This document shows, piece after piece, positions 22,271 through 58,120 of a stretch of 64,000 nt of DNA. Source of the DNA: Infirmifilum sp. NZ (lineage in GTDB: Archaea; Thermoproteota; Thermoprotei; Thermofilales; Thermofilaceae); the NCBI RefSeq assembly GCF_022693705.1, contig NZ_CP094288.1, forward strand, positions 1,474,451 to 1,538,450, in the 5' to 3' direction. The translations under genes and the position numbers were made by a program. A model generated the notes under the pieces. It was given only the letters and a program-made list of their open reading frames with translations. It made no database searches and was not told the origin of the DNA. How positions within the stretch are numbered: position 1 is the first letter of the stretch; each line of letters begins with the position of its first letter.

Positions 22271-22271
22271 T

Positions 22272-33570: not shown

Positions 33571-33586
33571 GCATGTATATACATGC
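33571..33586 (+). promoter_or_regulatory. 16-base palindrome at the start of the AbrB-PhoU gene
   Basis: GCATGTATATACATGC is a perfect palindrome. It lies between a TATA-like CTTATTTATT (33558-33567) and the ATG at 33592, so a bound dimer would block transcription. The encoded protein begins with a swapped-hairpin (AbrB) domain that binds such palindromes, making autoregulation the simplest idea. The guaB promoter is less than 50 bases away on the other strand. Confidence 0.55.
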
Positions 33587-33591
33587 TATGT

Positions 33592-38445: not shown

Positions 38446-38868
38446 ATGATAAGCGGTGTAAGGCGTAGAAGTCTGTGGCTTTACCACTTCAATTCAGGAG
38501 GCTGCAACGGTTGCGACATAGAGTTCGTTGCCTCCCTAACCCCGCGCTACGACCTCGAAAGGCTAGGCATCCAATTAGTCCCAAGCCCAAGGCATGCAGA
38601 CGTCCTGGTAGTGACGGGGCCCGTAACCGCACTCTCCGCCAGCCCCCTCAAAACCGTGTACGATCAGATGCCTGAGCCGAAAATCGTCATAGCACTTGGA
38701 ACCTGCGCGTGCACGGGCGGCATTTTCTCGAACTGCTACAACGTCATTGGCGGCGCCGACAAGGTCGTTCCCGTAGACGTCAAGATCCCCGGGTGCCCAG
38801 CCAACCCTGGTACACTTCTCTCTTACTTGTCGAGGCTCCGAGGGGTGAACACGAATGGGAAGCGCTAG
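38446..38868 (+). CDS. Group 4 [NiFe] hydrogenase small subunit (NuoB-like)
   Basis: A 140-residue electron-transfer subunit with the proximal [4Fe-4S] cluster ligands: NSGGCNGCDIE (Cys20 and Cys23), GTCACTGG and KIPGCPANP. The CxxC spacing of the first motif is that of hydrogenase small subunits, unlike the Cys-Cys of complex I NuoB. It passes electrons to the NiFe site of the next gene product on the cytoplasmic face. ATG 38446 is preferred; a TTG at 38434 is also possible. It overlaps the large subunit gene by 14 bases and heads an eight-gene operon. Confidence 0.9.
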   Translation: MISGVRRRSLWLYHFNSGGCNGCDIEFVASLTPRYDLERLGIQLVPSPRHADVLVVTGPVTALSASPLKTVYDQMPEPKIVIALGTCACTGGIFSNCYNVIGGADKVVPVDVKIPGCPANPGTLLSYLSRLRGVNTNGKR

Positions 38869-40483
38869 ACTGCAGGAAAAGCACAGGGTAACGCCAAACG
38901 AGTTCAACCAGAGGCTCAAGGATTTCATGGGCTACGGCTACACTCACCTGATAGCGATAACGGCTGTCGACAGGGGGAGCTACATCGAGGCCCTGTACCA
39001 TCTTGGAGATCTGTCTGGAAGAGTCGAGCACCTCTCAGTGGAGTTGCCCAAGGGTAACCCCGTCCTACCGGACATCTCGCCCTTAGTCCCAGGGGCGGCT
39101 TTCTACGAGCGAGAAGTCTCCGATCTCTTCGGAGTAAGGTTCGAGGGCCTAGGCGAGCAGGGCAGGTTCATACTGCCGGACTGCTATCCACGAGAGGCTC
39201 CGCCACCCCTCCTCAAGGACACAAAGCCAGAGACTGTAAGAGAGTACCTGTCGAAAGCGACCACATGCGAGGTCCAAGCCGTTACAATGCAGGCACCTCT
39301 ATCCCCCGAAAGCGTCGTCGTCCCCTTTGGGCCCTACCACCCTGCCCTGAAGGAGCCAGAGCACCTCAGCCTGGTGGTTGAGGGAGAAGTAATTAAGAAG
39401 GCTTTCGTCAGGATAGGCTTTGTACACAGGGGCATCGAGAAAGCGGCCGAGTCGAGAACGTTCCTCAGGGACGTCTTCTTACTTGAACGCGTCTGCGGGA
39501 TCTGTAGCACCCACCACGCTTGGACTTTCGTTGAGGCTGTCGAAAGGCTTCTCGGCATCGATCCCCCCAAGAGAGCGCACTACCTCCGCACACTCGTAGC
39601 TGAGCTCGAGAGGATGCACTCTCACTCCCTGTGGCTCGGTCTAGTGGGTTACTGGATGGGCTTCGAGTCAATGTTCATGTGGGTTTGGGGAATGCGTGAG
39701 ACAATAATGGACATACTGGAAGAGCTGACCGGTAACAGGGTGCACAAGTCTTTCGTCACAATCGGTGGGGTGAGGAGGGATGTCGGCGACGAGAAGCTGA
39801 AAAGCGTCGCTCAGAGGGTCGCGGAGTTCGAGAAATCGGTGAGCAGGGTACTTGAAGAGATTGTGAGCGTCGACGAGTTTATCGAACGGACGAGGAATGT
39901 GGGCTCCTACAATGTAGACCAGGCCCGGAGCTACGTGACCGTCGGCCCTGTAAGGCGCGCAGCAGGTGACCCTTACGATGTAAGGAGGATTGAGCCCTAC
40001 GGAGCATACGGGGAGCTGGACTTCGAGGTTGTAATGAGCAACAAGGGTGATGTCTTCAACCTAGTTCTCGTAAGGCTCAAAGAGCTGGAAGAGTCAGCCG
40101 GGCTAGTCGGGCAAATCGTGGCCAAGATGCCCTCCGGAAACCCTGTACCACAGAGGTACTTCATGGGGACTGTTCCAGAAGGCGAGGCTTACGCCAGAAC
40201 TGAGGCTCCCAGAGGGGAGCTCTTCTACTACGTCAACTCGAACAACACGCACTCACCATACAGGGTTAAGATTAGAACACCCACGCTTCCTAACATCCAG
40301 CTAGCGGCGAGCATACTGGAAGGGGCAACTCTTTCGGACTTACCCCTAATCGTGACGAGCATAGACCCATGCTTCAGCTGCATGGACCGAGTTCAGGTCT
40401 ATGACACGGGTAGTGGAGCTCCGCGCGTTTTAACGCTAGACGATTTTGTTCGGAAAACTAGAGGAAGAAGGGTGATGGGATGA
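38855..40483 (+). CDS. Group 4 [NiFe] hydrogenase large subunit fused to NuoC-like domain (HycE-like)
   Basis: A 542-residue fusion. Residues 1-140 resemble NuoC/30-kDa subunit (AAFYEREVSDLFGVRFEG). Residues about 150-510 are the catalytic subunit. All four nickel-binding cysteines are present: Cys214 and Cys217 in ERVCGICSTHH, and Cys506 and Cys509 in SIDPCFSCMDR. So this is a real hydrogenase, unlike the NuoD at 47308. After Arg512 there is a 30-residue tail, as in E. coli HycE, whose tail is removed by a protease after nickel insertion. No such protease or Hyp maturation gene is in the window. The enzyme would make H2 with electrons from ferredoxin, or run in reverse. Confidence 0.93.
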   Translation: MGSARLQEKHRVTPNEFNQRLKDFMGYGYTHLIAITAVDRGSYIEALYHLGDLSGRVEHLSVELPKGNPVLPDISPLVPGAAFYEREVSDLFGVRFEGLGEQGRFILPDCYPREAPPPLLKDTKPETVREYLSKATTCEVQAVTMQAPLSPESVVVPFGPYHPALKEPEHLSLVVEGEVIKKAFVRIGFVHRGIEKAAESRTFLRDVFLLERVCGICSTHHAWTFVEAVERLLGIDPPKRAHYLRTLVAELERMHSHSLWLGLVGYWMGFESMFMWVWGMRETIMDILEELTGNRVHKSFVTIGGVRRDVGDEKLKSVAQRVAEFEKSVSRVLEEIVSVDEFIERTRNVGSYNVDQARSYVTVGPVRRAAGDPYDVRRIEPYGAYGELDFEVVMSNKGDVFNLVLVRLKELEESAGLVGQIVAKMPSGNPVPQRYFMGTVPEGEAYARTEAPRGELFYYVNSNNTHSPYRVKIRTPTLPNIQLAASILEGATLSDLPLIVTSIDPCFSCMDRVQVYDTGSGAPRVLTLDDFVRKTRGRRVMG

Positions 40484-41172
40484 AGGCAAACAGCTCTCTG
40501 AAGGTTGTAGTGATGTCGCTTAGGAGCCTCCTCGGTAAACCCGTAACTTTAGACTTGGCGCGCGCGGCTCGAAACGGGGCAGCACGCGGCTACCCTAAGG
40601 TAAACCCGGGGAAGTGTCTCGGGTGCGGCCTGTGTGCGCGTTCATGCCCGCCAGGGGCAATAGCGATGAGGAGCGTCGGAAAGAGGGTTGTTGGCGGAAG
40701 GGAGGTTGACAAGCAAGCCCCAGAGTTCGACTACTACAGGTGCATATACTGTGGCCTCTGCGCGGACGTTTGCCCGGCGAAAGCGATTGAGATGGCTAAA
40801 GGCTCCCCTCTAGAAGTGTTGCCCGCACTAGCTCTAGCCACAACCCAGCTTGACCCCCGCGTGGGAGCAGTGGTAGCCTTCCTCTCAATCTTCCTTGTCG
40901 CGTTAGCGGTATATGTCGTAGCCGGTGCTCTGGCGCCGCGGGGTGTGCACTCAGAGAAGGCGCGGGAGCCCTTCACGGGCGGTGTGCCTGTAGCCCCCCG
41001 CTGGGAAAAATACTACGTTCCCAGTATCTTCGCCTTCATACTCTTCTTCTTGGTCGTGGAGTCTGTAGCCTTCATGCTTGTGCTGAAGCCGCAGCCGCAA
41101 GTAGCCCTACTCGCGATCACCGTACTACTCGCGATCCTCGTGGAGGGCCTGAACCTACTCCGAGAGGGGTGA
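40480..41172 (+). CDS. Ferredoxin (NuoI-like) fused to a NuoA-like membrane domain
   Basis: A 230-residue protein. Residues about 45-110 carry two [4Fe-4S] motifs, CLGCGLCARSCP and CIYCGLCADVCP, as in NuoI/HycF/HyfH. The C-terminal part has three hydrophobic segments. It includes a loop (SEKAREPFTGGVPVAPRWEKY) followed by YVPSIFAFILFFLVVESVAF, which resembles NuoA, in which the loop reads Y(E)CG and is followed by a similar helix. I therefore read it as an NuoI-NuoA fusion, which would tether the ferredoxin-like arm directly to the membrane part. It overlaps the large subunit gene by four bases (ATGA). Confidence 0.78.
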   Translation: MKANSSLKVVVMSLRSLLGKPVTLDLARAARNGAARGYPKVNPGKCLGCGLCARSCPPGAIAMRSVGKRVVGGREVDKQAPEFDYYRCIYCGLCADVCPAKAIEMAKGSPLEVLPALALATTQLDPRVGAVVAFLSIFLVALAVYVVAGALAPRGVHSEKAREPFTGGVPVAPRWEKYYVPSIFAFILFFLVVESVAFMLVLKPQPQVALLAITVLLAILVEGLNLLREG

Positions 41173-41178
41173 TCAGCC

Positions 41179-42153
41179 GTGCTGGAGGCGTTGCTTCAGG
41201 CGCTGGTGTTCCCTGGGCTCTTTTTCTCGGTGACCATGGCTTTCTGGTTCGAGTACATTGAGAGGAAAATCACAGCAAGAGTGCAGACGCGCGTAGGCCC
41301 CCTTTACGCTGGGCCGAAGGGGCTCTTGCAGCCCGTGTACGACTTCCTGAAGCTCCTCGGGAAAGAGGAGCTTATCCCGCGGAACGCGGACCCGTTGCTG
41401 TTCCAGCTGGCCCCGGTCATAGCGGTTACAATCCCCGTATTCGGAATGACGTACATCCCCGTAGCCTCGACGTCCATGCCGCTGAGCTTCCAGGGAGATG
41501 TCCTCCTCGTCCTCCTGCTTTTAGCGCTGTCGGCGTTCACGATAGCGCTAGCCGGATACAGCGCGACTACCCCGTACACCTCCCTGGGCGTCGGGAGACT
41601 CCTTATACAGTACTCCATGTACGAGAGTGTTTTCGCCCTATGCATTGCAGCGGCAGCGGTTCAGGCCTCGGCTCTAAGCCTCGAAGGCATAGTGACCTAC
41701 CAGGCCCTTCACGGCCCCCTCGCGCTGTACCAGCCTATTGGCTTCGCGGTGGCCCTGATAGCCCTCCTGGCTAAACTGGAGAAGAGGCCCTTCGACCTCC
41801 CCCACGCCAAGCAGGAGATCGCAGCAGGGTGGCAAACGGAGTTCTCCGGAAGAAGCCTCGCGTACCTCAGGCTGTACAGCGACTTAAGCATGACTTGGGG
41901 CATCTCGCTCGTCACAACATTTTACCTAGGCGGGCCGCTCGGGCCGGGGTACCCGGAGCTAGGCCCTGTTGCAGGCTTCCTGTGGTTCGGCCTGAAAGCC
42001 CTCCTGGTGAGCATTGCAATCACCTTGGTCAGTGCCTCGAGCGGCCGTATAAGGGCAGTGGGGCTTGCCAGGCGCTTTTGGGGTAGGCTGTTCCCCCTCA
42101 CTCTTATCCAGCTGGTTCTAGCTTTTCTCCTAAGGTGGTTTGTATGCTGGTAG
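41179..42153 (+). CDS. Hydrogenase membrane subunit, NuoH/HycD-like
   Basis: A 324-residue membrane protein with about eight segments. The NuoH signature loops are clear: YIERKITARVQTRVGPLYAG near residue 27, GLLQPVYDFLKLLGKEEL, and KRPFDLPHAKQEI with the following TEFSG near residue 195. In complex I and hydrogenases this subunit links the catalytic arm to the ion-pumping arm and lines the quinone or interface cavity. GTG 41179 lies six bases after the previous stop. The 3' end overlaps the NuoJ-like gene. Confidence 0.92.
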   Translation: MLEALLQALVFPGLFFSVTMAFWFEYIERKITARVQTRVGPLYAGPKGLLQPVYDFLKLLGKEELIPRNADPLLFQLAPVIAVTIPVFGMTYIPVASTSMPLSFQGDVLLVLLLLALSAFTIALAGYSATTPYTSLGVGRLLIQYSMYESVFALCIAAAAVQASALSLEGIVTYQALHGPLALYQPIGFAVALIALLAKLEKRPFDLPHAKQEIAAGWQTEFSGRSLAYLRLYSDLSMTWGISLVTTFYLGGPLGPGYPELGPVAGFLWFGLKALLVSIAITLVSASSGRIRAVGLARRFWGRLFPLTLIQLVLAFLLRWFVCW

Positions 42154-42581
42154 AGGTTTTCTGCCTACTGGGCCTCGCCTTCGTGCTCTGGGGACTTTTC
42201 TCTAGGAGAACAACGTTCAGCCTGCTTTCGCTTTCAGCCGGGAGCATAATGGTGGCCTTCGCCATCTCAGAGCTGGCGGGATGGGTTCCCGCAATGCTGG
42301 TGGCATCGCTGTACGCTGGTGCTCTCGTGGCGCTGATGACTGTCTGGGTTATAGTAGTCGCAGGGGAGAAGGCAAGGATAGACACGATCTACACGCTCGC
42401 TCTAGTGTTCATGTTCCTCATAGTGCTCGCAGCGTTGCTCCTCATTTCCAGCAATCAGGCTAGCCTCGCTGGTAGAGCTGTCTTGAGGGAAGCCGACTAC
42501 CGTGACTTCTCACTTCTCACAATCCTTTTGCTGGTTGCGCTTCTCGGGGGTGTTCACACGGTCCGAGGTGGTGGAGAATGA
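42144..42581 (+). CDS. Hydrogenase membrane subunit, NuoJ-like
   Basis: A 145-residue protein with about four to five membrane segments. The middle segment, MLVASLYAGALVALMTVWVIV, corresponds to the conserved third helix of NuoJ, whose pi-bulge region is important in complex I. Overlaps of ten bases with the NuoH-like gene and four with the NuoK-like gene keep it in the operon. A longer start at GTG 42135 is possible. Presence of J- and K-type subunits is more complex I-like than is usual for small Ech-type hydrogenases. Confidence 0.8.
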   Translation: MLVEVFCLLGLAFVLWGLFSRRTTFSLLSLSAGSIMVAFAISELAGWVPAMLVASLYAGALVALMTVWVIVVAGEKARIDTIYTLALVFMFLIVLAALLLISSNQASLAGRAVLREADYRDFSLLTILLLVALLGGVHTVRGGGE

Positions 42582-42877
42582 GTGGTGAGCTTGTGATCGT
42601 GAGTACGGCTCTCACACTGGTAACAGCGGGCCTCGCGGCTATAGCTGCCACGAGAAACATGATGAAGGTGATAATGGGGCTCCAGTCCATGGTCCTCGGC
42701 TCGCTCCTCCTCCTGGGCCTTGCCTGCGCGAACTCCGGGGCTACGGCTCAGGACATTTTCCTTCTCGTCGCAATAGCAGCCGCGGCGACTGAAGCCCTCG
42801 CCATGGCCATCATCATACTCGTCTGGGAGCGCTTCAGGACCATCGATCCGCAGGAGGTCTCTGAGCTGAGGTGGTGA
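42578..42877 (+). CDS. Hydrogenase membrane subunit, NuoK/HyfE-like
   Basis: Ninety-nine residues with three membrane segments, the size and layout of NuoK. Buried acids typical of the family can be seen in AAAATEALAMAIIIL (third segment). NuoK/MrpC-type subunits form the link between the H/J part and the antiporter-like subunits and help carry protons or sodium. It overlaps the upstream NuoJ-like gene by four bases. Confidence 0.85.
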   Translation: MSGELVIVSTALTLVTAGLAAIAATRNMMKVIMGLQSMVLGSLLLLGLACANSGATAQDIFLLVAIAAAATEALAMAIIILVWERFRTIDPQEVSELRW

Positions 42878-42879
42878 GC

Positions 42880-44550
42880 ATGCTCGCGGACTCCCTGGTA
42901 TTTGAGCTGTTTGCGGCGTCAGCGCTCGTGACCATTCTAGGTAGGAGCAGGAAGGCGGTGGAAGCCCTCAGCGTAGTCTCTTCGCTCGCTGCGGCCGCGC
43001 TGTCAGTTCTATATGCGTTTTCCTCCGATCAGCCTTCACTGCTTGGGCTCCAGCTCTACGATGACCCCCTGTCGAAGCTGATGCTGTGCGTGGTAAACAT
43101 CCTTGGGTCGCTGATCATCGTGTACAGCCTCGGCTACATGGAGCACGACCCAGGGTACGTGAGGTACTACTCCCTGATGCTCTTCTTTATAGCATCGATG
43201 AGCCTACTGGTGCTCTCAACTGACCTCATTATCCTCTACATGTCCTGGGAGCTCGTCGGCGTGTGCAGCGCGCTCCTGATCTCGTTCTGGTGGGAGAAGC
43301 CCGAGGCCAGGAGGGCTGGCCTAAAAGCCTTCACGGTCACGAGGATCGGGGACATCGGCTTCATAGTGGCCGCGGCGATCATCCTCTCAGCTGTGGGTAC
43401 AACGCAGATTCCATCCATCCTATCGTCCTCCACTAGGCTCGGCGGGCAGATCACACCGGTTGCACTCCTGCTCCTCCTCGCTGCTGTAGGCAAATCGGCC
43501 CAGTTCCCGCTCTTCGTGTGGCTTCCCGACGCGATGGAGGGGCCAACCTCCGTCAGCGCGCTCATACACGCTGCAACAATGGTCAAAGCGGGAGTCTACC
43601 TGATCTCCAGGTTCTACCCGCTCATCGCCTCAAGCGAAGTAGTGCTATCGACGATTGTGTGGCTCTCAACGATCACCGCCTTGCTGTCCGCCCTGTCCGC
43701 TCTAGGAGCATCCGACGTGAAGAAAGTCCTGGCTTACAGCACCATTAACCACCTTGCACTCATGTTCCTCGCTCTCGGCCTAGGAGCGTGGACAGCCGCC
43801 CAGCTCCACCTGGTCTCCCACTCGCTATTCAAGGCCCTGCTCTTCCTCTGCGCAGGCCTCATCATACACGAGGTCGGAACGCGTGACTTGGACAAAGTGT
43901 GGGGCTTGTGGGGCAGCGGGATGAAAGTAACGGGGGTGGCCTTCCTCATCGGAGCGCTCAGCCTTGCAGGTGTCCCACCTTTACCGGGCTTCTTCACGAA
44001 AGAGCTCATATTCACGGCTCTCGAGGAGAAGTACCCAGGCTTACCGGGAGAAGTGCTAGTCTTCACGGTTTCACTTCTCTCAGCTATGTATATTTTCAGG
44101 CTGTTCTTCAGGCTGTTCTCCGGTTGCTGCGGTGCCCGAAGGATTCACGAGCATAACCTGCCTATGTTGCTACCTATAGTGCTTCTGGCCTCCTTAACGC
44201 TCGGTGGGTACCTTGTTCTCGTCGAGGTCTCTAAGCTACTCGGGGCTGAGCCGGAGTTCTACGATGTAAACCCCCTTGCGCTCCTAGCGCTCGTCGCGGG
44301 CCTGCTGCTGTCCTATGCCGTCTGGGACAGGGCGAAGGGATGGAGTCTCAGGAAAGCTATGTTGCCGATTGCACGCATAGCCGATAGGGGCTTCTACGTT
44401 GACGCCGCCTACACAGCTCTCGCCTCCTGGTTGACTGGAACCCTCTCCAGTATCTCTGTTAAGCTTCAGAGAGGCATCCCATCGGTCAACACCCTGTGGC
44501 TTATGGGCTTGCTCCTAGTTCTTCTGATGGTTGTCCTGGGGGTGACGTAG
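42880..44550 (+). CDS. Hydrogenase antiporter-like subunit, NuoL-like
   Basis: A 556-residue membrane protein with about 15 or 16 segments. The pump residues are kept: the TM5-type glutamate in YMSWELVGVCSALLISFWW, and the TM7 lysine in AVGKSAQFPLFVWLPDAMEG. The block TSVSALIHAATMVKAGVYL is the classic NuoL/MrpA signature. The C-terminal region is shorter than the long lateral helix of bacterial NuoL, although an amphipathic stretch follows (residues 480-520). GTG 42871 is an alternative start; ATG 42880 follows the previous stop more neatly. Confidence 0.92.
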   Translation: MLADSLVFELFAASALVTILGRSRKAVEALSVVSSLAAAALSVLYAFSSDQPSLLGLQLYDDPLSKLMLCVVNILGSLIIVYSLGYMEHDPGYVRYYSLMLFFIASMSLLVLSTDLIILYMSWELVGVCSALLISFWWEKPEARRAGLKAFTVTRIGDIGFIVAAAIILSAVGTTQIPSILSSSTRLGGQITPVALLLLLAAVGKSAQFPLFVWLPDAMEGPTSVSALIHAATMVKAGVYLISRFYPLIASSEVVLSTIVWLSTITALLSALSALGASDVKKVLAYSTINHLALMFLALGLGAWTAAQLHLVSHSLFKALLFLCAGLIIHEVGTRDLDKVWGLWGSGMKVTGVAFLIGALSLAGVPPLPGFFTKELIFTALEEKYPGLPGEVLVFTVSLLSAMYIFRLFFRLFSGCCGARRIHEHNLPMLLPIVLLASLTLGGYLVLVEVSKLLGAEPEFYDVNPLALLALVAGLLLSYAVWDRAKGWSLRKAMLPIARIADRGFYVDAAYTALASWLTGTLSSISVKLQRGIPSVNTLWLMGLLLVLLMVVLGVT

Positions 44551-45849
44551 ATGACGCTTGAAGAAACTGTTATTATCACTACTCTCGCAGGGGAACTGTC
44601 GCTGATCTTGACCAGAGTCAAAAGCGGGGAGGCTCGACGAGTAGCCTCGACGATAGCTGCCGCCAGCGTGCTGGCCTACCTTCTTCTCTGCTCCGCCTCT
44701 GAAAGATCGCTGGCGGGCTTCATCGGCTTAACCTCAACGGCGATAGGGCTGGTTGCAGTCCTGGCGGCCTATAGCCTGCTCAGCGAGGATGTTTCAGCCC
44801 ACAACGCGTTAACAGTGGCTCTCTGCTCCTCCGCCACACTGCTCGCGGCTTCGACGGACCTCATAAGGCTCTTCATCGCCTGGGAGGTTCTCAGCGTCTC
44901 CGTCGTAGCCCTCACTGCCTACCATAGGGACAAGGAGGGTGCCGAAGCCGCCCTGAAGTACATAATGCTGTGCGGAGCTGGAACAGCGCTAGCGCTGGCG
45001 GGAATCGCGCTTACAGTGGTGGAGACCGGCAACACGTCGATCGAGGCAGCCCGATCCGCAAGCCCGCTGGCGAAAACGCTCTTGCTTGCAGGCTTCGGCG
45101 TCGAAGCCGCGCTCTTCCCCCTGCACTTCTGGCTCCCAGATGCGCACATGGCTGCACCCAGCACCGCGAGCGCAGTCCTGTCAGGCATAGCTATAGAGTC
45201 GGCGGCCGTCCTCGTGTACAGGCTCGTGGGCGGAGACCAGCTCATGAGGACCATTATCGCGCCGCTCGCGCTAGCGGGGGCGCTGGTAGGGAACCTGTCG
45301 GCACTCAGGCAGGACGACCTAAAAAGGCTCCTAGCCTACAGCAGCGTGGCGAACGTGAACTACATCCTGCTCGCGTGGTCAACAGGGAACGCGCTCGCCA
45401 CAAGATACGCCTTCCTCCACATACTAGCCCACGGCCTCCTGAAGGCCTCGCTTTTCATCGTTTCAGGTGTGCTCCTAGCCGTCTACGGCACGAGGTCGCT
45501 CTCAAGGCTGTCGGGCACGGCCTCGAGGGACAATATCCTGAAGTTCACAGTGGTGCTGGCGGCAATGGGCCTAACCGGAGCCCCACCACTCCCGACTTTC
45601 TGGAGCGAGCTTTACATGGGTGTCGGGCTGTTCCAGAGCAGTCTCGCTCTCGGGCTAGGCTTCCTGGCCTCCGTCGTGATCTCCTTCGCGTACTACCTCA
45701 GAGTAGTGTACACCCTAGCTGCGGGAAGCGGGGAACCTCTGCACGGGAAGCGTTTACCCTCCATTCTAGCACTGAGCCTGGTGTCCGCGAGCATCCTCGT
45801 TTTCCTCCTCTACGCCAAGGTGCTTGAGAATTTTTTACCATCTCTTTAA
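44551..45849 (+). CDS. Hydrogenase antiporter-like subunit, NuoN/MrpD-like, with TM7 Lys replaced by Glu
   Basis: A 432-residue membrane protein with about 13 segments, last gene of the hydrogenase operon. The TM5 glutamate is present (Glu112 in FIAWEVLSVSVV). In the TM7 motif GFGVEAALFPLHFWLPDAH, position 185 is glutamate where the family almost always has lysine (GFG(I/V)K). That lysine pairs with the TM5 glutamate in proton transfer, so this channel may be altered or silent. The later lysine/histidine helix is present (LKRLLAYSSVANVNYILL, HGLLKASLFI). A T-rich tract spans its stop codon. Confidence 0.9.
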   Translation: MTLEETVIITTLAGELSLILTRVKSGEARRVASTIAAASVLAYLLLCSASERSLAGFIGLTSTAIGLVAVLAAYSLLSEDVSAHNALTVALCSSATLLAASTDLIRLFIAWEVLSVSVVALTAYHRDKEGAEAALKYIMLCGAGTALALAGIALTVVETGNTSIEAARSASPLAKTLLLAGFGVEAALFPLHFWLPDAHMAAPSTASAVLSGIAIESAAVLVYRLVGGDQLMRTIIAPLALAGALVGNLSALRQDDLKRLLAYSSVANVNYILLAWSTGNALATRYAFLHILAHGLLKASLFIVSGVLLAVYGTRSLSRLSGTASRDNILKFTVVLAAMGLTGAPPLPTFWSELYMGVGLFQSSLALGLGFLASVVISFAYYLRVVYTLAAGSGEPLHGKRLPSILALSLVSASILVFLLYAKVLENFLPSL

Positions 45850-45942
45850 CTTTGTAAAGGCAATACTGATACATGTAAAAGAAAGGTGTTCTGAGTTCAT
45901 TGTCTAACTTAAAAAGTGTATATATGTCTAGTAACTTAAGGT

Positions 45943-45953
45943 TTATATACGCG
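45943..45953 (+). promoter_or_regulatory. TATA box of the nuo-type operon
   Basis: GGTTTATATAC lies about 25-35 bases before the ATG at 45978. It predicts a leaderless nuoA message and shows that the second complex has its own promoter, separate from the hydrogenase operon. Confidence 0.65.
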
Positions 45954-45977
45954 GCGCGGGAGTATGAAGGGAGCTTC

Positions 45978-46334: not shown

Positions 46335-46348
46335 CCGAGGATGAGCCT

Positions 46349-47324: not shown

Positions 47325-48528
47325 GGCAGGCGGAGTGGTTTACAGCAGGCTCATTGCTAAGGAGGGAGACGAGTCGACGTACGAGCTCTTCATAGGTCCT
47401 CAGCACCCCGCTTCAGGGCATATGCGCTTCATAGTACGCCTTGAGGGGGACATCATAGTGAGCGTGGACCCGGACATAGGCTATGTCCACCGCACCATGG
47501 AGAAGCTGGCCGAGGGCCGCGAGGTCATCAAGTCCATACCGCTCCTCGAGAGGATGACGATAATCGACAGCCACAACGTGACGTTAGGCCTGGTACGCGC
47601 GCTCGAGAAGCTGCTGGACGTGGAGCCGCCCCCACGAGCCAGGTACCTGCGCACCCTGCTCAGCGAGATCAACAGGATCGCCAGCCACCTCTACGGGATG
47701 GGGATAGCCGGGATCATGCTCAACCACTCAACCATGTTCATGTGGGCTTTCGGGGACAGAGAGGTGTGGATACAGCTAGCGGAGGACCTGAGCGGCTCGA
47801 GGCTAACCCACACGTACAGCGTGCCCGGCGGGGTGAGGCGCGACCTACCCCAGGGCTTCGCGGATAAGGCTGAGAAGGCGATAAGGTACATGGAAAAGAG
47901 GCTCAGAGACTACATGGCGATATTCCTCGACAACCCCCAGGTTCGGGCGAGGTACGAGGGTGTTGGTGTTCTGAGGAAGAGCGAGGCCAGCAGGCTCGGG
48001 ATAGTCGGGCCGAACCTGAGGGCCAGCGGCATCAGGTACGACGCGAGGCTAGCCGAGGACTACGCCGCCTACAGCGAGCTGGAGTTCGAGGTGCCGGTGC
48101 GCGAGGAGGGCGACGCCCTCGCCAGGATGCTCGTGAGGGTCGAGGAGATAAAGCAGAGCATGAGCATCATACGACAGGTTTTGAGGAAGATCCCCGACGG
48201 GCCATTCTTCTCGGAAAAGTACCTGCGCCTCCTCCCGCCTCCTCTCCGCGAGCAGGTTGCGAAGACCGGGAGGGTGAAGTTCCCCGGAGTGTTCGCTTCA
48301 CTCAAGCTGCCGGAGGGTGACGCGGTTAGCCGGGTGGAGATGGGCCACGGGGAGATATTCTACCACGTGACCGGGAACGGCTCCACGAAGCCCTACAGGC
48401 TCCGCGTCGTAACCCCCTCCTTCCGCAACGTCATACTCTTCAGGTACCTGATGCCCGGGCACAGGTTTATGGACTTCCCGGCGATTTACGGTAGCCTAGA
48501 CTACTTCCCGCCTGAGGCGGACAGGTGA
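47308..48528 (+). CDS. nuoD: Complex I-like subunit NuoD without nickel ligands
   Basis: A 406-residue homologue of hydrogenase large subunits. Neither nickel-binding CxxC pair is present (the N-terminal site reads PLLERMTIIDS and the C-terminus ends GSLDYFPPEADR), so it cannot hold a NiFe centre. The loop that carries the quinone-contacting histidine of complex I is HPASGHMRF here instead of HP-(S/A)-THGVLR. By-eye alignment also puts isoleucine where bacterial NuoD has the quinone-contacting tyrosine. The GSGH-like loop may be usual in archaeal homologues. The acceptor could be a menaquinone-type quinone, or something else. Confidence 0.92.
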   Translation: MLRSSEAGGVVYSRLIAKEGDESTYELFIGPQHPASGHMRFIVRLEGDIIVSVDPDIGYVHRTMEKLAEGREVIKSIPLLERMTIIDSHNVTLGLVRALEKLLDVEPPPRARYLRTLLSEINRIASHLYGMGIAGIMLNHSTMFMWAFGDREVWIQLAEDLSGSRLTHTYSVPGGVRRDLPQGFADKAEKAIRYMEKRLRDYMAIFLDNPQVRARYEGVGVLRKSEASRLGIVGPNLRASGIRYDARLAEDYAAYSELEFEVPVREEGDALARMLVRVEEIKQSMSIIRQVLRKIPDGPFFSEKYLRLLPPPLREQVAKTGRVKFPGVFASLKLPEGDAVSRVEMGHGEIFYHVTGNGSTKPYRLRVVTPSFRNVILFRYLMPGHRFMDFPAIYGSLDYFPPEADR

Positions 48529-49556
48529 TCGGCATGAGTTGGGGAGACGCATTATCCTGGCTTTTGAGGCTTCTCCTTAGCCCGCAGGTTTTCGCGCCTC
48601 TGATATTCCCGGGCTTGCTGACAGCGCTTGTCGTTCTGCTCACGGTGATCTGGGCTGAGAGGAAGATAGCGGCACGCGTGCAGATGCGCGTGGGGCCGCT
48701 GTACGTGACAAGGAGGCTCGGCGGCGTGCTGCAGATGCTGGCTGACGGCACGCGCTACATGTTCCAGGAGTTCATAATCCCCGCCACCGCTGACAGGCTA
48801 CCTTTCCTGTTTGCACCGGTCCTGGCGTTAACCCTCGCCATAGTGCCCTTCGCCTTCATCCCAGCTGCGCCAGGCTTCTCGCCCATAAAATCACCCTACT
48901 CCCTGCCAGCCGCCCTGGCGGCGATCTCGGCTGTACCGCTCTCAGTCCTGCTCATGGGGTGGTCTTCCAACAACAAGTTCGCCATCCAGGGTGCCGTCAG
49001 GGAGGCGTTCATGGGTCTGGCCTACGAGGCCGTCGTCTTCATCAGCGCTCTCTCCATGGGCGTGCTCTACGGGACGCTGGACCTCGAGGAAGCCGTTTCC
49101 AGGCAGTGGCTCCCCGGCCTTCTCCTGAACCCCGTGGCCGCCTTCGCGTTCTTCGTGGGCATGGTCATGAGCGCGGGCAAGCTGCCCTTCGACATCGTTG
49201 AGGGCGAGCAGGAGATAGTGGCCGGCCCCTACGTGGAGTACAGCGGGATAATATTCGGCATAGGGATGGGCCTAGCGTACCTCAAGCTGTACTCCCTATC
49301 CCTCATCTACACCCTTCTCTTCCTCTCCGGCTGGGAGCCCGTGGTTGCCCCGCTCTACAGCCTCTACCCCGGCCTCGGAGGTGTCCTCCTGTTCGCCAAG
49401 GCCTACCTCCTAATGCTCTTCATCGTCTTCCTAAGGTCGGTTTACGGCAGGTACCGCCTTGACCAGGCGCTCAGAGCGGGGTGGAGGATTTACCTGCCGC
49501 TCTCTCTAATCTCCCTTTTAATATCCATACTCCTAAGGGTGGTGGGTGTTGTCTAA
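48525..49556 (+). CDS. nuoH: Complex I-like subunit NuoH
   Basis: A 343-residue membrane protein with about eight or nine segments. Signature loops are WAERKIAARVQMRVGPLYVT near residue 43 and GKLPFDIVEGEQEIVAG near residue 222, the acidic loop lining the quinone chamber in complex I. The GTG start overlaps the nuoD stop (GTGA). It overlaps nuoI by 11 bases. It is a paralogue of the hydrogenase subunit at 41179, but closer to complex I in the acidic loop. Confidence 0.93.
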   Translation: MIGMSWGDALSWLLRLLLSPQVFAPLIFPGLLTALVVLLTVIWAERKIAARVQMRVGPLYVTRRLGGVLQMLADGTRYMFQEFIIPATADRLPFLFAPVLALTLAIVPFAFIPAAPGFSPIKSPYSLPAALAAISAVPLSVLLMGWSSNNKFAIQGAVREAFMGLAYEAVVFISALSMGVLYGTLDLEEAVSRQWLPGLLLNPVAAFAFFVGMVMSAGKLPFDIVEGEQEIVAGPYVEYSGIIFGIGMGLAYLKLYSLSLIYTLLFLSGWEPVVAPLYSLYPGLGGVLLFAKAYLLMLFIVFLRSVYGRYRLDQALRAGWRIYLPLSLISLLISILLRVVGVV

Positions 49557-50025
49557 ACCCGTATCCTCATTCAAGCTGCACTTGAGAGCAGTTGCAACAG
49601 GGCTGAAGTACCTGCTCTTCCCCAACAGGATCACGGTCTACTACCCCGAGGAGTACGTCGAGCCCCCGGAGGGCTACAGGGGGCTGATCCGCTACTACCC
49701 TGAGAGGTGCATACAGTGCGGCCTCTGCGCGATGATATGCCCGGCCTCTGCAATGAAGATGTACAGGACCAAGACCGACAGGAAGGGGAGGCCGGGCGTC
49801 AACTACCAGAGGTGCATCTTCTGCGGCTTCTGCGTGGACATATGCCCCCAGAACGCCCTTGAGATGACCAAGGTCCACGACGTAGCCTACGAGTCCCTAA
49901 ACGAGCTCGTAGTGCCGCCGGAGAGGTTCTCGCAGGAGCCCGTCTCACCCGCGGTGGCGGGCGGGGCTAGGAGGCTTAAAACGGTTTTTGACGAGGAGAG
50001 GGGGTTGAGGCATGAGCTGGCTTAA
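49546..50025 (+). CDS. nuoI: Complex I-like subunit NuoI (two [4Fe-4S] clusters)
   Basis: A 159-residue ferredoxin-type subunit. Two CxxCxxCxxxCP motifs are complete: CIQCGLCAMICP and CIFCGFCVDICP. The amphipathic N-terminus (RAVATGLKYLLFPNRITVYY) lies along the membrane in the family, and YPEEYVEPPEGYRGLI is conserved. With nuoE, F and G absent, this subunit is the likely entry point for electrons, probably from reduced ferredoxin; that donor is inferred. Confidence 0.93.
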   Translation: MLSKPVSSFKLHLRAVATGLKYLLFPNRITVYYPEEYVEPPEGYRGLIRYYPERCIQCGLCAMICPASAMKMYRTKTDRKGRPGVNYQRCIFCGFCVDICPQNALEMTKVHDVAYESLNELVVPPERFSQEPVSPAVAGGARRLKTVFDEERGLRHELA

Positions 50026-50518
50026 TCTGTTTGATGTATACCTGGCCCTAGCGTCGCTCGCGGCAGTGGTGGCCGCGGGCCTTGCCGTGAAATCGCGCGA
50101 GGACTTCTACTCCGCTGTCATGCTCGGGCTGACCGGCCTCGCAACCGCGTCCTTGATCGCGCTCCTGGGCTACGGATTCGTAGGAGTTTTCCACGCGCTG
50201 GTCTACGTCGGCGCGACGGTCATGTTTGTGGTGTTTGGGGTCGTGCTGATAGGTCGCACAGGTGGGTTTGAGAGGAAGTCCCTCGCCCCCGCAGCCCTCG
50301 CGTCGCTTCTGCTGACGCTGGCGCTCTACCTGTTCCTCACAGGCATCTCGCAGGGCACCACACCCGTCGCCGCGCTGAAACCCTCGAGGGTGCAGGAGAT
50401 CCTCTTCGAGGAGCACCCGCTCGCCGTTTTCTACCTCGGGGCATCCCTGGCCGTGTTGGTCATCGCAGGGGTCATGCTCGCGTCCGGAGGCTCCTCGGAT
50501 GCACGAGAGGTGGTGTAG
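50012..50518 (+). CDS. nuoJ: Complex I-like subunit NuoJ
   Basis: A 168-residue membrane protein with five segments. The third segment, GVFHALVYVGATVMFVVFGVV, is the NuoJ hallmark (YVGA-----F). It overlaps nuoI by 14 bases and is followed directly by nuoK with no gap. Confidence 0.9.
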   Translation: MSWLNLFDVYLALASLAAVVAAGLAVKSREDFYSAVMLGLTGLATASLIALLGYGFVGVFHALVYVGATVMFVVFGVVLIGRTGGFERKSLAPAALASLLLTLALYLFLTGISQGTTPVAALKPSRVQEILFEEHPLAVFYLGASLAVLVIAGVMLASGGSSDAREVV

Positions 50519-50827
50519 ATGGAGTCGCCTGTACTGCTTGTTGTCCCCGCGGTTCTCATGGGGTTAGGCGCCCTAGGCGCCATCACAAGCAGGAGCGCGG
50601 TAAAAGCGCTGATATCGCTCGAGGTGATGTTCAACGGCGCCCTCCTGGCTCTCCTCATGCTGGCCTCCAGAGTACCTGACGAGGCCTCATCGCTCGCCCT
50701 GCTCGCGATCTCTCTCAGCGGTGTTGAAGTAGGTGTTCTGATCTCGATATTCGTCCTCCTCTTCAGGAGGACTAGGAGTGTTGATGTTTATGAGGTTCCG
50801 GGTTTAAGAGGTGGTGAAAATGAGTAG
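50519..50827 (+). CDS. nuoK: Complex I-like subunit NuoK
   Basis: A 102-residue protein with three membrane segments. The two buried glutamates of NuoK appear in KALISLEVMFNGALLAL and LLAISLSGVEVGVLISIF. These carry protons between the central axis and the antiporter-like subunits. It overlaps nuoM slightly and starts right after the nuoJ stop. Confidence 0.92.
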   Translation: MESPVLLVVPAVLMGLGALGAITSRSAVKALISLEVMFNGALLALLMLASRVPDEASSLALLAISLSGVEVGVLISIFVLLFRRTRSVDVYEVPGLRGGENE

Positions 50828-52334
50828 TGTCCCGTTTTTATGGCTGGCCGTGCTAGCGCCGCTAGCTTCAGCCGTACTGACAGTGTTCCTGGGAAACAGG
50901 AAGAAAGCCGCTGGTGTAATCAACTCCCTCGCGCTATTTACCTCGGCAGCATCCCTGCTGGCAGCTTACGCGCTCCACGCGTCTAGCAAGCCGTGGGCAG
51001 ACCCCTTAAGCTTCACAGTTGACGGGCTCGGAACATTCGGCCTACTGCTCGACGCCCCCTCCTTCCTCGTTGCGTTCTCGATAGCCATCACCACAGCGCT
51101 GATCGCTCTCTACAGCATACCGTACATGGAGCACCGCTTCGAGGAGATGGAGCACGAGGGCGTCAGGCCGCCGGGCTGGAGGTCCTACTACTTCCTGTAC
51201 ACTCTCTTCTCGCAGGCCATGATCGGGACAGTCCTGTCCACGAACATAATCGAGTTCTACGTGTTCCTGGAGCTCACGCTCATCCCGAGCTTCCTCCTGA
51301 TAGCCTTCTACGGCTACGGCGACAGGATCAGAATAGCGATAATGTACCTCCTCTGGACCCACGTCGGCGCCCTACTGTTCCTCATCGGCGCCCTGACCGT
51401 GGGCTTCCAGAGGGGCTTCGACTTCATCGACGCCATGGGTAGCTACAGGCTCGCGGCGGGCGAGGGGGTAGCGCTAGCCCAGTACGCCTTCTGGCTCATG
51501 ATCCTGGGCCTCTCCGTCAAGCTGGCGGTCCTAGGCGTCCACATGTGGCTACCATACGCCCACGCCGAGGCCCCAACCCCGATCTCAGCCCTCCTGAGCC
51601 CCAACCTCATCGGACTGGGAGGAGCCATGATGTTCAGGATAGTCTACGTCCTCTTCCCCAGCACCTTCGCCGCCAACAGCCCCATCCTCACGGTGTGGGC
51701 CCTAGCCACGATAATCTATGGGGGCCTCATGGCCCTGAGCCAGACCGACTTCAAGAGGCTCCTAGCCTACAGCAGCATCTCCCAGATGGGCTACCTGCTA
51801 CTAGGCCTCTCAACCGTGACGGCCTACGGGGTTGCAGGCACGTTCCTGCACTACATGGTCCACGCCTTCGGCAAAGCAGTCCTCTTCGGCGTCGCGGGAG
51901 CACTGATAGCGACCTACCACGGGCTGCGGGACATAACCAAGATGGGAGGACTCGCCGAGAAGATGCCCTACACGGCGGCCCTCGCCCTGCTCGGCTTCAT
52001 GCACATCACGGGTATACCCCCCACAGCCGGCATCTGGAGCGAGTACCTGATAGTGAGGGGCGCGGTCGAGCGGACGCTGCAGGCTGGCCCCGCGTGGTAC
52101 ACGGGCACAGCGCTGGCGCTTTTGGTAGGCATAGGGCTCTCAACAGCCTACGCCTTCCTCACGATGCGGAGGATATTCTACGGCCCACTGCGCTTGAGCG
52201 AGGCGCGCGAGGCGAAGAGCCAGCTCCTACTGCCCCTAGCCCTCCTAGCGGCAATGGGCATCGCCTCCTTCCTGCTTGCATCCCCCCTAATAGACCCCCT
52301 GGTGACTCAGCTATCGCAGGTGATCCGTGGCTAA
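50820..52334 (+). CDS. nuoM: Complex I-like antiporter subunit NuoM
   Basis: A 504-residue membrane protein with about 14 segments. The TM5 glutamate lies in IIEFYVFLELTLIPSFLLI and the TM7 lysine in GLSVKLAVLGVHMWLPYAHA. SQTDFKRLLAYSSISQMGYL is the NuoM/N signature around the broken TM8. All pump residues that I can place are present, in contrast to the NuoN-like subunit at 44551. ATG 50820 is chosen; GTG 50811 is an alternative. M precedes L here, the reverse of the bacterial order L-M-N. Confidence 0.93.
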   Translation: MSSVPFLWLAVLAPLASAVLTVFLGNRKKAAGVINSLALFTSAASLLAAYALHASSKPWADPLSFTVDGLGTFGLLLDAPSFLVAFSIAITTALIALYSIPYMEHRFEEMEHEGVRPPGWRSYYFLYTLFSQAMIGTVLSTNIIEFYVFLELTLIPSFLLIAFYGYGDRIRIAIMYLLWTHVGALLFLIGALTVGFQRGFDFIDAMGSYRLAAGEGVALAQYAFWLMILGLSVKLAVLGVHMWLPYAHAEAPTPISALLSPNLIGLGGAMMFRIVYVLFPSTFAANSPILTVWALATIIYGGLMALSQTDFKRLLAYSSISQMGYLLLGLSTVTAYGVAGTFLHYMVHAFGKAVLFGVAGALIATYHGLRDITKMGGLAEKMPYTAALALLGFMHITGIPPTAGIWSEYLIVRGAVERTLQAGPAWYTGTALALLVGIGLSTAYAFLTMRRIFYGPLRLSEAREAKSQLLLPLALLAAMGIASFLLASPLIDPLVTQLSQVIRG

Positions 52335-52348
52335 AAGGGTGAAGGACA

Positions 52349-54424
52349 TTGCAGGAAGCGCTACTACTAGCCTGGCTCGCACCCTACTTCGCGACCGCAA
52401 CCGTCATGGTGCTCAGCAAGTCGTCCTGGCGAGCCAAGTCACTCGTCTCCATCGCCGCGCTCCTACTGTCAGCCCTAGCCTCGACCGTCGGCCTCCTAAA
52501 GGTGGCTCAGGGCCACGAGGTCCACGTGTACTTCCAGTGGGTCAAAACCCTGGGCGTCAACATCGGCGTGCTCTTCGACGGCCTCTCCTCGATCATGGCG
52601 GCCGTGGTCTCCTGGCTCAGCTTCCTCATAGCGGTCTACAGCTACGAGTACATGCGCGGAGAAGGGGGAGAGACGAGGTACTGGCTCTTCTTCACGTTCT
52701 TCGTCGGGAGCATGATGCTCCTCGTCCTCTCAGACAACCTCCTCACCATGTTCATAGGTTGGGAGGGCACAGGCCTTGCGAGCTACGCGCTGATCGGCCA
52801 CTGGTTCACAGACGAGGAGGAGAGGTGGGTCGGAGACCCAGGCCGCAGGGCGCTAGGCGTGCCCATGTGGTTCGAGCCCAGCCACTCAGGGCTCAGAGCC
52901 CTAGTCTTCACGAGGCTAGGCGACGTCGGCATGGTATTCGGGGTCGCGACGCTGCACACGCTCCTCGGGACAACGCTCCTAAGCGAGGTCGCGCGGGGCA
53001 CGTGGGCCGCAAGCCTGCTCACCAGAGGCATTCTGCCGGCTTTCCTCTGGTTGCTCTTCCTCGGCGCCATGGCCAAGAGCGCCCAGTTCCCCTTCCACGA
53101 GTGGCTCGTCACCGCGATGACGGGCCCAACCTCTGTCAGCGCGCTGATCCACGCCGCTACGATGGTCAAGGCGGGCGTGTACTTCCTCCTCCGCTTCGCC
53201 CCAATCCTCGTGGCCGCCCACGCGGCGCTAGCGGCCGCTGGCGCGCCGCAGGCCATACCCTCTTTCCTCGAGAGCCTCGCCCTCATAGGCGCCTTCACGG
53301 CGTTCATGATGGCTACGATGGCGCTCGTCAGCAGGGAGCTGAAGCTCATCCTGGCGTTCTCGACGGCGAGCCAGCTGGGATACATGTTCATGGGCGTAGC
53401 CGTGGGCACCCTGGCCCTCGGGTCGATAGGCGGCCTCACAGCGGGTCTAGCCCACCTGATGAGCCACGCGGTTTTCAAGGCGGCGCTCTTCCTGGCGGCC
53501 GGAGCCGTGATACACGCAGTGCACAGCCGCTTCATAGACGACATGGGGGGCCTAGCCTCATCCATGAAGCTCACAGCGACGGCGTTCCTCCTCGCGGCGC
53601 TGAGCCTCTCCGGGATACCTCCCTTCGCGGGCTTCTGGACCAAGGACGAGATAATCCACCTGTCAGCCGAGGCTGGTCTGCTGGTCCCCACGCTGCTGGC
53701 CGTCGTAACCGCCGGGCTCACGGCCACCTACACGGCCCGCGTCTTCGCCAGGGTGTTCGCGGGGACGCCGCGCGAGCACCACGCCCACGAGCCCGGCCCG
53801 GCGATGCTGGCGCCCTACCTCACGCTGGGCCTGCTCAGCCTGGGGCTCGGAATAGCTTGGCCCTTCGTGAGCAAGGGCTTCGAGTCCACGCTTGAGCACA
53901 CACTAGGAGTCACCCAGAGCGCCCCGCTGTCCGAGGCGGCGCCCATAGCAGGGGCCACAGAGGCCACCTTAGCGTTAGCGCTCCTAGGCTTCCTAGCAAC
54001 CCTGTACCTGTACGCCTTCAGGGCATGGGACCCCTACGCGAGGGTTAGGGAGAGCGGGCTCCTGAGGGGAATCCACAGCTTCCTCTACGACAGGTGGCTC
54101 ATAAACCCAGTCTACTACAGGGTGATCGTCGCGGGCTTCAGGAAGCTTTCAGAGCTAACGTACAGGTTCGTAGACTCGGGCCTCGTGGACGCGCTCTACC
54201 ACAGGGTCCTGCCGGCCGCGTTCACAGGCCTCTCGAGGATAACGTACAGGCTCATCGAACCCGGCTACGACGCGCTCCTCCACACCCACCTCGTGAACCT
54301 CTTCAAGGCCCTCTGGTCAAGCTTCAGGAGGATGCAGACAGGCCGAGCCCCACACTACCTGATCTACCTCTGGCTCGGCGCCTCAATCCTCCTGCTACTC
54401 GTGCTGACGGGGTGGTTCAGGTGA
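52349..54424 (+). CDS. nuoL: Complex I-like antiporter subunit NuoL
   Basis: A 691-residue membrane protein, long enough to include the lateral amphipathic helix and final anchor of NuoL. The TM5 glutamate is in MFIGWEGTGLASYALIGHWF, the TM7 lysine in GAMAKSAQFPFHEWLVTAM, and TSVSALIHAATMVKAGVYF is intact. The C-terminal 150 residues contain repeated RLSELTYRFVD/SRITYRLIE-type amphipathic segments, then a last membrane helix. The TTG start follows nuoM by 14 bases with a GGTGAAGG Shine-Dalgarno-like sequence. The stop overlaps nuoN (TGATG). Confidence 0.93.
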   Translation: MQEALLLAWLAPYFATATVMVLSKSSWRAKSLVSIAALLLSALASTVGLLKVAQGHEVHVYFQWVKTLGVNIGVLFDGLSSIMAAVVSWLSFLIAVYSYEYMRGEGGETRYWLFFTFFVGSMMLLVLSDNLLTMFIGWEGTGLASYALIGHWFTDEEERWVGDPGRRALGVPMWFEPSHSGLRALVFTRLGDVGMVFGVATLHTLLGTTLLSEVARGTWAASLLTRGILPAFLWLLFLGAMAKSAQFPFHEWLVTAMTGPTSVSALIHAATMVKAGVYFLLRFAPILVAAHAALAAAGAPQAIPSFLESLALIGAFTAFMMATMALVSRELKLILAFSTASQLGYMFMGVAVGTLALGSIGGLTAGLAHLMSHAVFKAALFLAAGAVIHAVHSRFIDDMGGLASSMKLTATAFLLAALSLSGIPPFAGFWTKDEIIHLSAEAGLLVPTLLAVVTAGLTATYTARVFARVFAGTPREHHAHEPGPAMLAPYLTLGLLSLGLGIAWPFVSKGFESTLEHTLGVTQSAPLSEAAPIAGATEATLALALLGFLATLYLYAFRAWDPYARVRESGLLRGIHSFLYDRWLINPVYYRVIVAGFRKLSELTYRFVDSGLVDALYHRVLPAAFTGLSRITYRLIEPGYDALLHTHLVNLFKALWSSFRRMQTGRAPHYLIYLWLGASILLLLVLTGWFR

Positions 54425-55782
54425 TGGAAGTAGTCTACGCTAGCCTGGGCGTCGCGTCGGCAGCCATCGTTGCCCTGCTCTTCGCCGGTAAGCGGGGAGC
54501 CCTGGCCCACGCCACAGCCGTGGCGGCGCTAGCGTCGCTCCTAGCCCTAACGCTCTACAGCTTAACCCTCACCCCCATCCGGGAACGCGAGGTCGCGGCA
54601 GACTGGTTCTCCCTTGCGGTGGCGGCCATAGCCCTGCTCGACGCCCTGATCAGCGTCTCTGGCTTCCGGGGGCCGGCGGGCGAGTACAGGTACGAGAACG
54701 GGGCCTACATCCTCGCGATCGCGGGCGTGACGGGCCTCCTGGGGGTAGCGTGGTCGGGGAGCATACCGGTGCTCTTCACCTCGTGGACGCTATTCTCCGT
54801 CTCGAGCTACGCGCTGATAGCCATACCGCGGGACGCGTACTCCGCCTCGGGAGCCGCGAAGTACGGCCTCATGAGCCTAGCCGCCTCAAACCTCCTGCTG
54901 CTCTCGCTCGGGGTCGTAGCCGTAGCAACGGGGAGCCTGCAGCTGAGCCACCCCGTCTCAATACCGCTCGCAGCCGGCCTGGGCGCCACGGCGCTCCTGC
55001 TAGCGGCAGTCGGCTTCAAGATAGGCGTATTCCCCTTCCAGGCATGGCTACCCGACACTTACGGCTACTCAGACCCCCTCCCCGTCTCAGCAGTGGCCCC
55101 GCTCTCCAAGGCAGCCACAATACTCGCGCTCTACAAGCTCTCATCGATCCTAATACCCCAGGCCCAGGAGAAGTGGCTGCTGCTCGTAGGCGCCCTAGCC
55201 GTCCTGACCATGACGTACGGCAACGTGACCGCGCTGCTCCAGAGAGGGCTCCAGAGCCTACTCGCGTACAGCAGCATAGCCCAAGCAGGCTACCTGCTGG
55301 TGGGCCTAGCGGCCCTCGCCGCCCCCGAGGCGAGGAGGATAGCCCTCTACGGCCTTGCGCTCCAGCTACTAGCCTACTCGCTCGCGAAGACAGGCCTCTT
55401 CCTGCTCGCGAGGACGGTGCGCAGGCACGGCGGCAAGCCCCCAGCCCTCGACGAGCTGAGAGGACTCTCCCAGGCCAACCCGGCCCTCGCGGCCTCAGCG
55501 GCTATACTTACCCTGAGCCTGATGGGGCTGCCGCCGCTCGCGGGCTTCTGGGGCAAGCTGTACCTCTTCCTGGCCCCCGTGTACACGGCCCCATGGCTGA
55601 CATCCCTAGCGCTCATCAACACGGGCATCGCGGCCGCGTACTACGCCAGGCTACTGAAAGCTATCTACTTCGAGCCGGGGAGCGTGAGGCTGCAGGGCTA
55701 CAGGGCGACGGTCGCGGCGGTGGAGGCCTGCGCGGCTATTACGGTTGCAGCCGCGGTGATCCCGCTGTTCATACAGCCATAA
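54424..55782 (+). CDS. nuoN: Complex I-like antiporter subunit NuoN
   Basis: A 452-residue membrane protein with about 13 or 14 segments. The TM7 lysine is present in LAAVGFKIGVFPFQAWLPD, and LQRGLQSLLAYSSIAQAGYL and LMGLPPLAGFWGKLYLF are NuoN signatures. In TM5 the family glutamate region reads FTSWTLFSVSSYALIA, where I see threonine rather than the usual glutamate. This should be checked by alignment. ATG 54424 overlaps the nuoL stop by one base. A T-rich tract follows the gene. Confidence 0.92.
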   Translation: MEVVYASLGVASAAIVALLFAGKRGALAHATAVAALASLLALTLYSLTLTPIREREVAADWFSLAVAAIALLDALISVSGFRGPAGEYRYENGAYILAIAGVTGLLGVAWSGSIPVLFTSWTLFSVSSYALIAIPRDAYSASGAAKYGLMSLAASNLLLLSLGVVAVATGSLQLSHPVSIPLAAGLGATALLLAAVGFKIGVFPFQAWLPDTYGYSDPLPVSAVAPLSKAATILALYKLSSILIPQAQEKWLLLVGALAVLTMTYGNVTALLQRGLQSLLAYSSIAQAGYLLVGLAALAAPEARRIALYGLALQLLAYSLAKTGLFLLARTVRRHGGKPPALDELRGLSQANPALAASAAILTLSLMGLPPLAGFWGKLYLFLAPVYTAPWLTSLALINTGIAAAYYARLLKAIYFEPGSVRLQGYRATVAAVEACAAITVAAAVIPLFIQP

Positions 55783-58094: not shown

Positions 58095-58120
58095 GAACCT
58101 TGACGAAACGAGAAAGCGAT

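Follow-up and report, generated by a model that had tools for sequence, protein, structure and literature searches.

We examined a window of 64,000 nucleotides (G000 C1:1474451-1538450) from the 1.83 Mb, 99.9% complete genome of the heat-loving archaeon Infirmifilum sp. NZ, in which positions 38446-55782 hold 19 open genes on one strand, arranged as two homologous sets head to tail. Set 1 probably encodes an ion-pumping group 4-type [NiFe] hydrogenase of the Fpo-like/Hfo-like kind and set 2 a Nuo complex carrying electrons from ferredoxin to a membrane acceptor, the two being linked, not duplicated. Judged from their trees, they are old, separately inherited complexes that were brought together by linkage and not by recent duplication.

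Gene content of the two sets

Set 1 (38446-45849) has eight genes in the order B, C-D, I-A, H, J, K, L, N, and set 2 (45978-55782) has eleven in the order A, B, C, D, H, I, J, K, M, L, N. Pfam assigned the products of 18 of the 19 genes, the exception being the J-like protein of set 1. The original prediction, made from the sequence alone, had described 19 same-direction genes in two homologous sets, and the open reading frames (ORFs) and Pfam assignments support this. Both sets also carry the H, J, K, L and N/M-type membrane subunits that it had listed, with the set 1 J placed without a Pfam match. The I-A and C-D fusions of set 1 are additions to that description. There are two pump-type subunits in set 1 (L, N) compared with three in set 2 (L, M, N). 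The genes of set 1 are as follows.

38446..38868, + strand: set 1 B, hydrogenase small subunit of NuoB type; PF01058, 116.9 bits; CNGC motif; 70-77% identity in genus
38855..40483, + strand: set 1 C-D fusion, [NiFe] large subunit; PF00329, PF00346, PF00374; both Cys pairs
40480..41172, + strand: set 1 I-A fusion, 2x[4Fe-4S] ferredoxin domain and NuoA domain (about residues 128-227); Fer4 matches; NuoA hidden Markov model (HMM)
41179..42153, + strand: set 1 H, NuoH-type membrane anchor; PF00146, 254 bits
42135..42581, + strand: set 1 J-like membrane subunit; five predicted transmembrane segments; same position in relatives
42578..42877, + strand: set 1 K, NuoK-type; PF00420, 44.8 bits; E36 equivalent is Gln
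42871..44550, + strand: set 1 L, pump-type subunit; PF00361, 238.6 bits; E144, K229 and K399 equivalents present
44551..45849, + strand: set 1 N, pump-type subunit; PF00361, 162.7 bits; clusters with Nitrososphaerales hydrogenase N

Both nickel motifs, L1 (ERVCGICSTHH) and L2 (DPCFSCMDR), were found in the large subunit of set 1, so the claim that the first set keeps its NiFe cysteines holds for both Cys pairs. The nearest PDB chains to the C-D fusion were HycE and MbhL, and set 1 D falls below the NCBIfam Nuo cut-offs. No formate dehydrogenase gene was found among the 19 genes. The NuoA half of the I-A fusion was missed by Pfam; residues 128-227 scored 52 bits against an HMM built from the NuoA proteins of hydrogenases outside the family (61 proteins), compared with 32 bits for E. 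coli NuoA. The fusion is a single ORF in four other genomes of the genus (G002-G005). In G007 (L038/L084), from a sister genus, and in L085, NuoA is a separate gene ahead of B, and in the metagenome-assembled genome (MAG) Thermofilum sp. NZ13, the nearest named match for set 1 (97% identity), the reading is broken into two ORFs that overlap, possibly through an error in the sequence. In all, set 1 covers 10 of the 11 Fpo/Nuo subunit types in its eight genes, lacking M. None of the eight encodes an Mrp-type sodium module, and on this ground an identity as Mbh, group 4d, was rejected. The genes of set 2 are listed next.

45978..46334, + strand: set 2 A, NuoA; PF00507, 32.3 bits; start picked by upstream alignment
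46349..46867, + strand: set 2 B, N2-type NuoB; PF01058; above NCBIfam NuoB cut-off; CC motif SCCGAEF
46845..47324, + strand: set 2 C, NuoC; PF00329, 124.7 bits
47308..48528, + strand: set 2 D, NuoD without Ni ligands; NCBIfam NuoD 453 bits, cut-off 360; motifs GPQHPASGHMR and YGSLDYFPPEADR
48525..49556, + strand: set 2 H, NuoH; NCBIfam NuoH 348 bits, cut-off 305
49546..50025, + strand: set 2 I, NuoI, 2x[4Fe-4S]; Fer4 matches
50012..50518, + strand: set 2 J, NuoJ; PF00499, 53.3 bits
50519..50827, + strand: set 2 K, NuoK; PF00420; E36 and E72 present
50811..52334, + strand: set 2 M, NuoM; PF00361, 205.5 bits; tree
52349..54424, + strand: set 2 L, NuoL, 691 aa; PF00361, PF00662; tree
54421..55782, + strand: set 2 N, NuoN; PF00361; start region inspected

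An alternative, longer reading of set 2 A begins at a TTG at 45900. For set 2 N a start at 54094 was rejected, as inspection of the start region puts the true start near 54421. Set 2 comprises all of A, B, C, D, H, I, J, K, L, M and N and no EFG, and NuoF (PF01512) was not found in the 99.9% complete genome. Neither nickel motif is present in its D subunit, and its B subunit has the CC motif given above. Gene content and motifs therefore bear out the proposal of one hydrogenase set beside one nuo set without nuoEFG, the second lacking NiFe cysteines and having an N2-type NuoB. Assignment of set 2 to the Mbs/Mbx class was rejected, as it has NuoA and Nuo-type J, K, L, M and N and not an Mrp-type module without NuoA.

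The stop of set 1 (45849) and the ATG of set 2 (45978) are separated by 128 nt, in which one putative promoter element was recognised.

45938..45950, + strand: TATA-like box of set 2, TTTATATA, about 36 nt ahead of the ATG at 45978

Similar boxes were seen at -37 or -38 in three relatives (L034, L035, L036) and none in L037. Comparison of the regions upstream of set 1 gave no clear TATA-like box common to relatives. That each set has its own promoter is thus supported in part, by the box ahead of set 2 but not for set 1.

Histories and linkage of the two sets

We built a concatenated tree of B, C, D and H from 45 complexes (980 columns). Set 2 was placed in thermoproteotal Nuo, inside the complex I clade that includes other Nuo sets, E. 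coli Nuo among them (100/100), and by its sequence it is an ordinary thermoproteotal Nuo. Set 1 grouped with G007 and L085 (100/100) within the hydrogenases (100/100), alongside other NuoA-bearing ones, the sister of this clade being hydrogenases of Nitrososphaerales and Thermoplasmata MAGs (100/100). The pump subunits L, M and N trace the same two histories. Homologous subunits in a similar order and a head-to-tail placement are what in-place duplication of one set from the other would produce. Forcing sets 1 and 2 of the genus into one clade cost 893 log units in the approximately unbiased (AU) test (p-AU 2.6e-47), which, under the model used, rejects a duplication at the genus level, and orthologues of set 2 are 54-63% identical in other families without close set 1 relatives. 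We regard in-place duplication as almost certainly wrong; the trees asked for in the original prediction separate the sets into different, fully supported clades and do not support a local duplicate or sister pair.

A direct sister relationship between the set 1 clade and complex I was also rejected (p-AU 0.0018). The view that the two sets form a natural pair for studying how hydrogenases and complex I diverged is useful in part, with the restriction that set 1 is not the hydrogenase nearest to complex I. With a HycE-type outgroup, complex I was nested among NuoA-bearing hydrogenases, the nearest being those of G008, G009 and G011, at a support of only 86/88. These three belong to other Thermofilaceae, and their hydrogenases (G008, L042:4035-13300; G011, L048:3139-12366; G009, L049) have Ni motifs and a near-complete Nuo gene order; of their pump subunits, L and M fall with those of archaeal complex I. 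Hydrogenases of Wolframiiraptoraceae/Thaumarchaeota MAGs (L144:3120-12500 and L151:2261-12800) are mosaic complexes, in which L and M group with archaeal complex I and B, C, D and H do not. The large subunit at L207:1602 (G081 C6) keeps the C-terminal Cys pair and has RVFGIC for RVCGIC, with one nickel-ligand Cys lost.

The original prediction had also called for a check of adjacency in relatives. Set 1 is followed by set 2 in the four other genomes of the genus with both (G002-G005) and in the NZ13 MAG; identity of G002-G005 to the window is 65-80% for set 1 D and 84-92% for set 2 D. In G001, of the same genus and 81% complete, there was no match to set 2 D and a single weak match to set 1 C-D. 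The flanking IMPDH, PhoU and SIS domain genes are kept in G002-G005 as well, with GMPS and GlnA in most, so adjacency at the genus level is weak evidence of coupling and may be plain synteny. G007, of the sister genus, has the two sets on separate contigs, which begin with residues 1-245 and residues 267-447, respectively, of one CoA-disulfide-reductase-like gene; in G012 the neighbours of this gene are an acetyl-CoA synthetase gene and set 2. From this split gene and the G012 layout we infer that the G007 sets lie about 11 kb apart in divergent orientation, the contig join being deduced and not assembled. None of the window's tested flanking genes was found on the two G007 contigs. Linkage in the sister genus appears to have outlasted a rearrangement and to be somewhat better evidence of coupling than adjacency within the genus. 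The neighbourhood could instead be accidental and have no functional meaning, a possibility to which we give a little less than even weight: the conserved flanks speak for it, as do other lineages with both complexes, where the sets are not adjacent but lie about 50 kb from each other or on separate contigs, and the G007 arrangement, with no tested flanking gene alongside, speaks against it.

One of two PhoU genes in the window (37127) sits directly ahead of set 1. Both have a MazE-like N-terminus, and together with phosphate-uptake ABC-like genes they were noted at 19697-23384, 33583-34599 and 37127-38140 of the window (PF01895, PF04014; the rest by eye). Elsewhere in the window, translations read by eye gave two paralogue-like proteins with an unusual N-terminal half (8241-9056, - strand; 58100-58930, + strand), and a TnpB-like protein with a CxxC zinc ribbon was recognised by eye at 9576-10973 (- strand).

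Predicted function and alternative readings

From knowledge of the families, we expect electrons in set 1 to pass from reduced ferredoxin through the I domain and B to the NiFe site in D, where protons would be reduced to H2, and the membrane arm of H, J, K, L and N would export ions. In set 2 electrons, most likely from ferredoxin too, would travel via I and B to an acceptor in the membrane, which is most likely a quinone, with ions pumped by the three antiporter-like subunits. Such a division of labour would assign H2 release to set 1 and respiration, for example to sulfur, to set 2. A shared ferredoxin pool with two outlets had been proposed; ferredoxin is a plausible common donor because the genome has no NuoF and has five POR-gamma genes, and the outlets, H+ and quinone, are predictions. 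The genome also encodes HypD and a HycI-type protease, a TAT-type (twin-arginine translocation) molybdoenzyme beside genes for an Fe-S protein and an NrfD/PsrC-type protein, and a second [NiFe] hydrogenase with a TAT signal and membrane and HdrD-like subunits. There are four UbiA family genes, one of them a candidate quinone gene in the window.

637..1533, + strand: MenA-like UbiA prenyltransferase; NF004617, 309.8 bits, cut-off 239

A heme O synthase-like UbiA protein (1571-2470, - strand; TIGR01473, above cut-off) is also encoded in the window, in a presumed anaerobe. The gene context fits a quinone-linked chain to sulfur, in which the quinone would be the predicted link.

We compared channel and quinone-site residues by alignment, numbered as in E. 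coli NuoK and NuoH and, for the quinone site, Thermus Nqo4. Set 2 has Glu at the positions of NuoK E36 and E72 and of NuoH E157, E216, E218, E220 and E228. Set 1 K has Gln at E36 and a Glu one place after the E72 position; set 1 H has, across the genus, His at 216 and Lys at 218, with 157, 220 and 228 retained; and set 1 N has Glu at the K217 and K395 positions. The Nitrososphaerales sisters of set 1 likewise have Gln at NuoK 36. We tentatively suggest, as an idea more doubtful than not, that set 1 and these sisters have a rewired E-channel in which H2 formation is coupled to pumping by a route other than that of complex I, with set 2 as the canonical control.

Several points weigh against the proposed roles. 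Ferredoxin as donor is deduced from the lack of NuoF and from analogy. MqnA and MqnD were not found in the genome, other quinone pathways not having been searched. In set 2 D the quinone-binding His38 of Nqo4 aligns to a gap and Tyr87 to Ile. The equivalents of these two residues are also absent, and the SGHMR motif is present, in all thermoproteotal relatives of set 2 D that were read, and the loss may be a lineage feature; we set it aside as a decisive sign of a non-quinone acceptor, since the motif is common to these relatives. Quinone is probably the acceptor of set 2.

Set 2 might nevertheless act as the Mbs complex does and reduce an acceptor other than quinone directly, whether sulfur species or something else. 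Its D subunit scores 241 bits to MbsL and 245 to Thermus Nqo4, its loop is ungapped against MbsL where Nqo4 has His38, and its C-terminus reads PPEADR compared with PPDIDR in MbsL. However, the membrane arm is of Nuo type with A, J, K, L, M and N and keeps the E-channel Glu residues, the same D motif is found in relatives across the phylum, an NrfD-type reductase is encoded separately, and MbsL, a long branch at an open fork, is placed with uncertainty in the tree; we consider direct reduction unlikely. Group 4 hydrogenases are held to be reversible, and set 1 could work mainly in reverse, with the ion gradient driving ferredoxin reduction with H2. This direction was proposed by the authors who described Hfo of Bathyarchaeia (PMC7886697). 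Against this, several 2-oxoacid:ferredoxin oxidoreductase genes would supply reduced ferredoxin, and a mainly reversed set 1 seems to us similarly improbable. We retain H2-forming set 1 and quinone-reducing set 2 as the preferred reading.

Comparison with known systems

Complex I is thought to derive from ion-pumping hydrogenases. In genera where both kinds are linked, with the same body plan, a different active site and an altered coupling channel, the change from hydrogenase to quinone reductase can be addressed in one cell; our trees correct the view that pairs of this kind stem from local duplication. Searches of open-licence papers on Thermofilum with hydrogenase or complex I turned up none that describes this gene pair. 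T. pendens appears without an mbh/mbx-related operon in a study of S. marinus (PMC2678158); G003, in which both sets are present, is probably the T. pendens chromosome.

The closest published kind to set 1 is Hfo, the Fpo-like 11-subunit [NiFe] hydrogenase of Bathyarchaeia, subgroup 4g (Loh, Herve and Brune 2021, PMC7886697). Its motifs are defined as L1, C[GS][ILV]C[AGNS]xxH, and L2, [DE][PL]Cx[AGST]Cx[DE][RL] (PMC7886697), and set 1 matches both (CGICSTHH, DPCFSCMDR). Like set 1, Hfo has NuoA, J, K, L and N-type subunits, no EFG or FpoFO, and no Mrp module was seen. Hfo is further defined by the same 11 subunits as Fpo/Nuo, whereas set 1 has no M, has the C-D and I-A fusions, has I ahead of H, carries Gln for NuoK E36 and other altered channel residues, and belongs to a different hydrogenase clade, with Nitrososphaerales MAGs. 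By its sequence, set 1 is thus predicted to work like Hfo without being a strict 11-subunit Hfo.

Mbh of Pyrococcus furiosus (4d) is, like set 1, a ferredoxin-type [NiFe] hydrogenase with a membrane arm and homologous B, C, D, H and I, but it lacks NuoA and carries a sodium module of Mrp type, where set 1 has Nuo-style NuoA, J and K. In E. coli formate hydrogenlyase C and D are fused as in set 1, and HycE is the best PDB match of set 1 C-D, although it lies in a remote clade. MbsL of P. furiosus Mbs resembles set 2 D in loop length and C-terminal PP motif, but set 2 differs from Mbs in its Nuo membrane arm and NuoA. The fqo cluster of Thermoproteus tenax is, like set 2, of the 11-subunit type without an NADH module and has the thermoproteotal NuoD motif; it contains 2-oxoacid oxidoreductase genes, whereas set 2 has none and adjoins a hydrogenase set (PMC3189178). 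Both complexes are variants of known machines, each with its own ancient history, and the pair is real and mostly explained.

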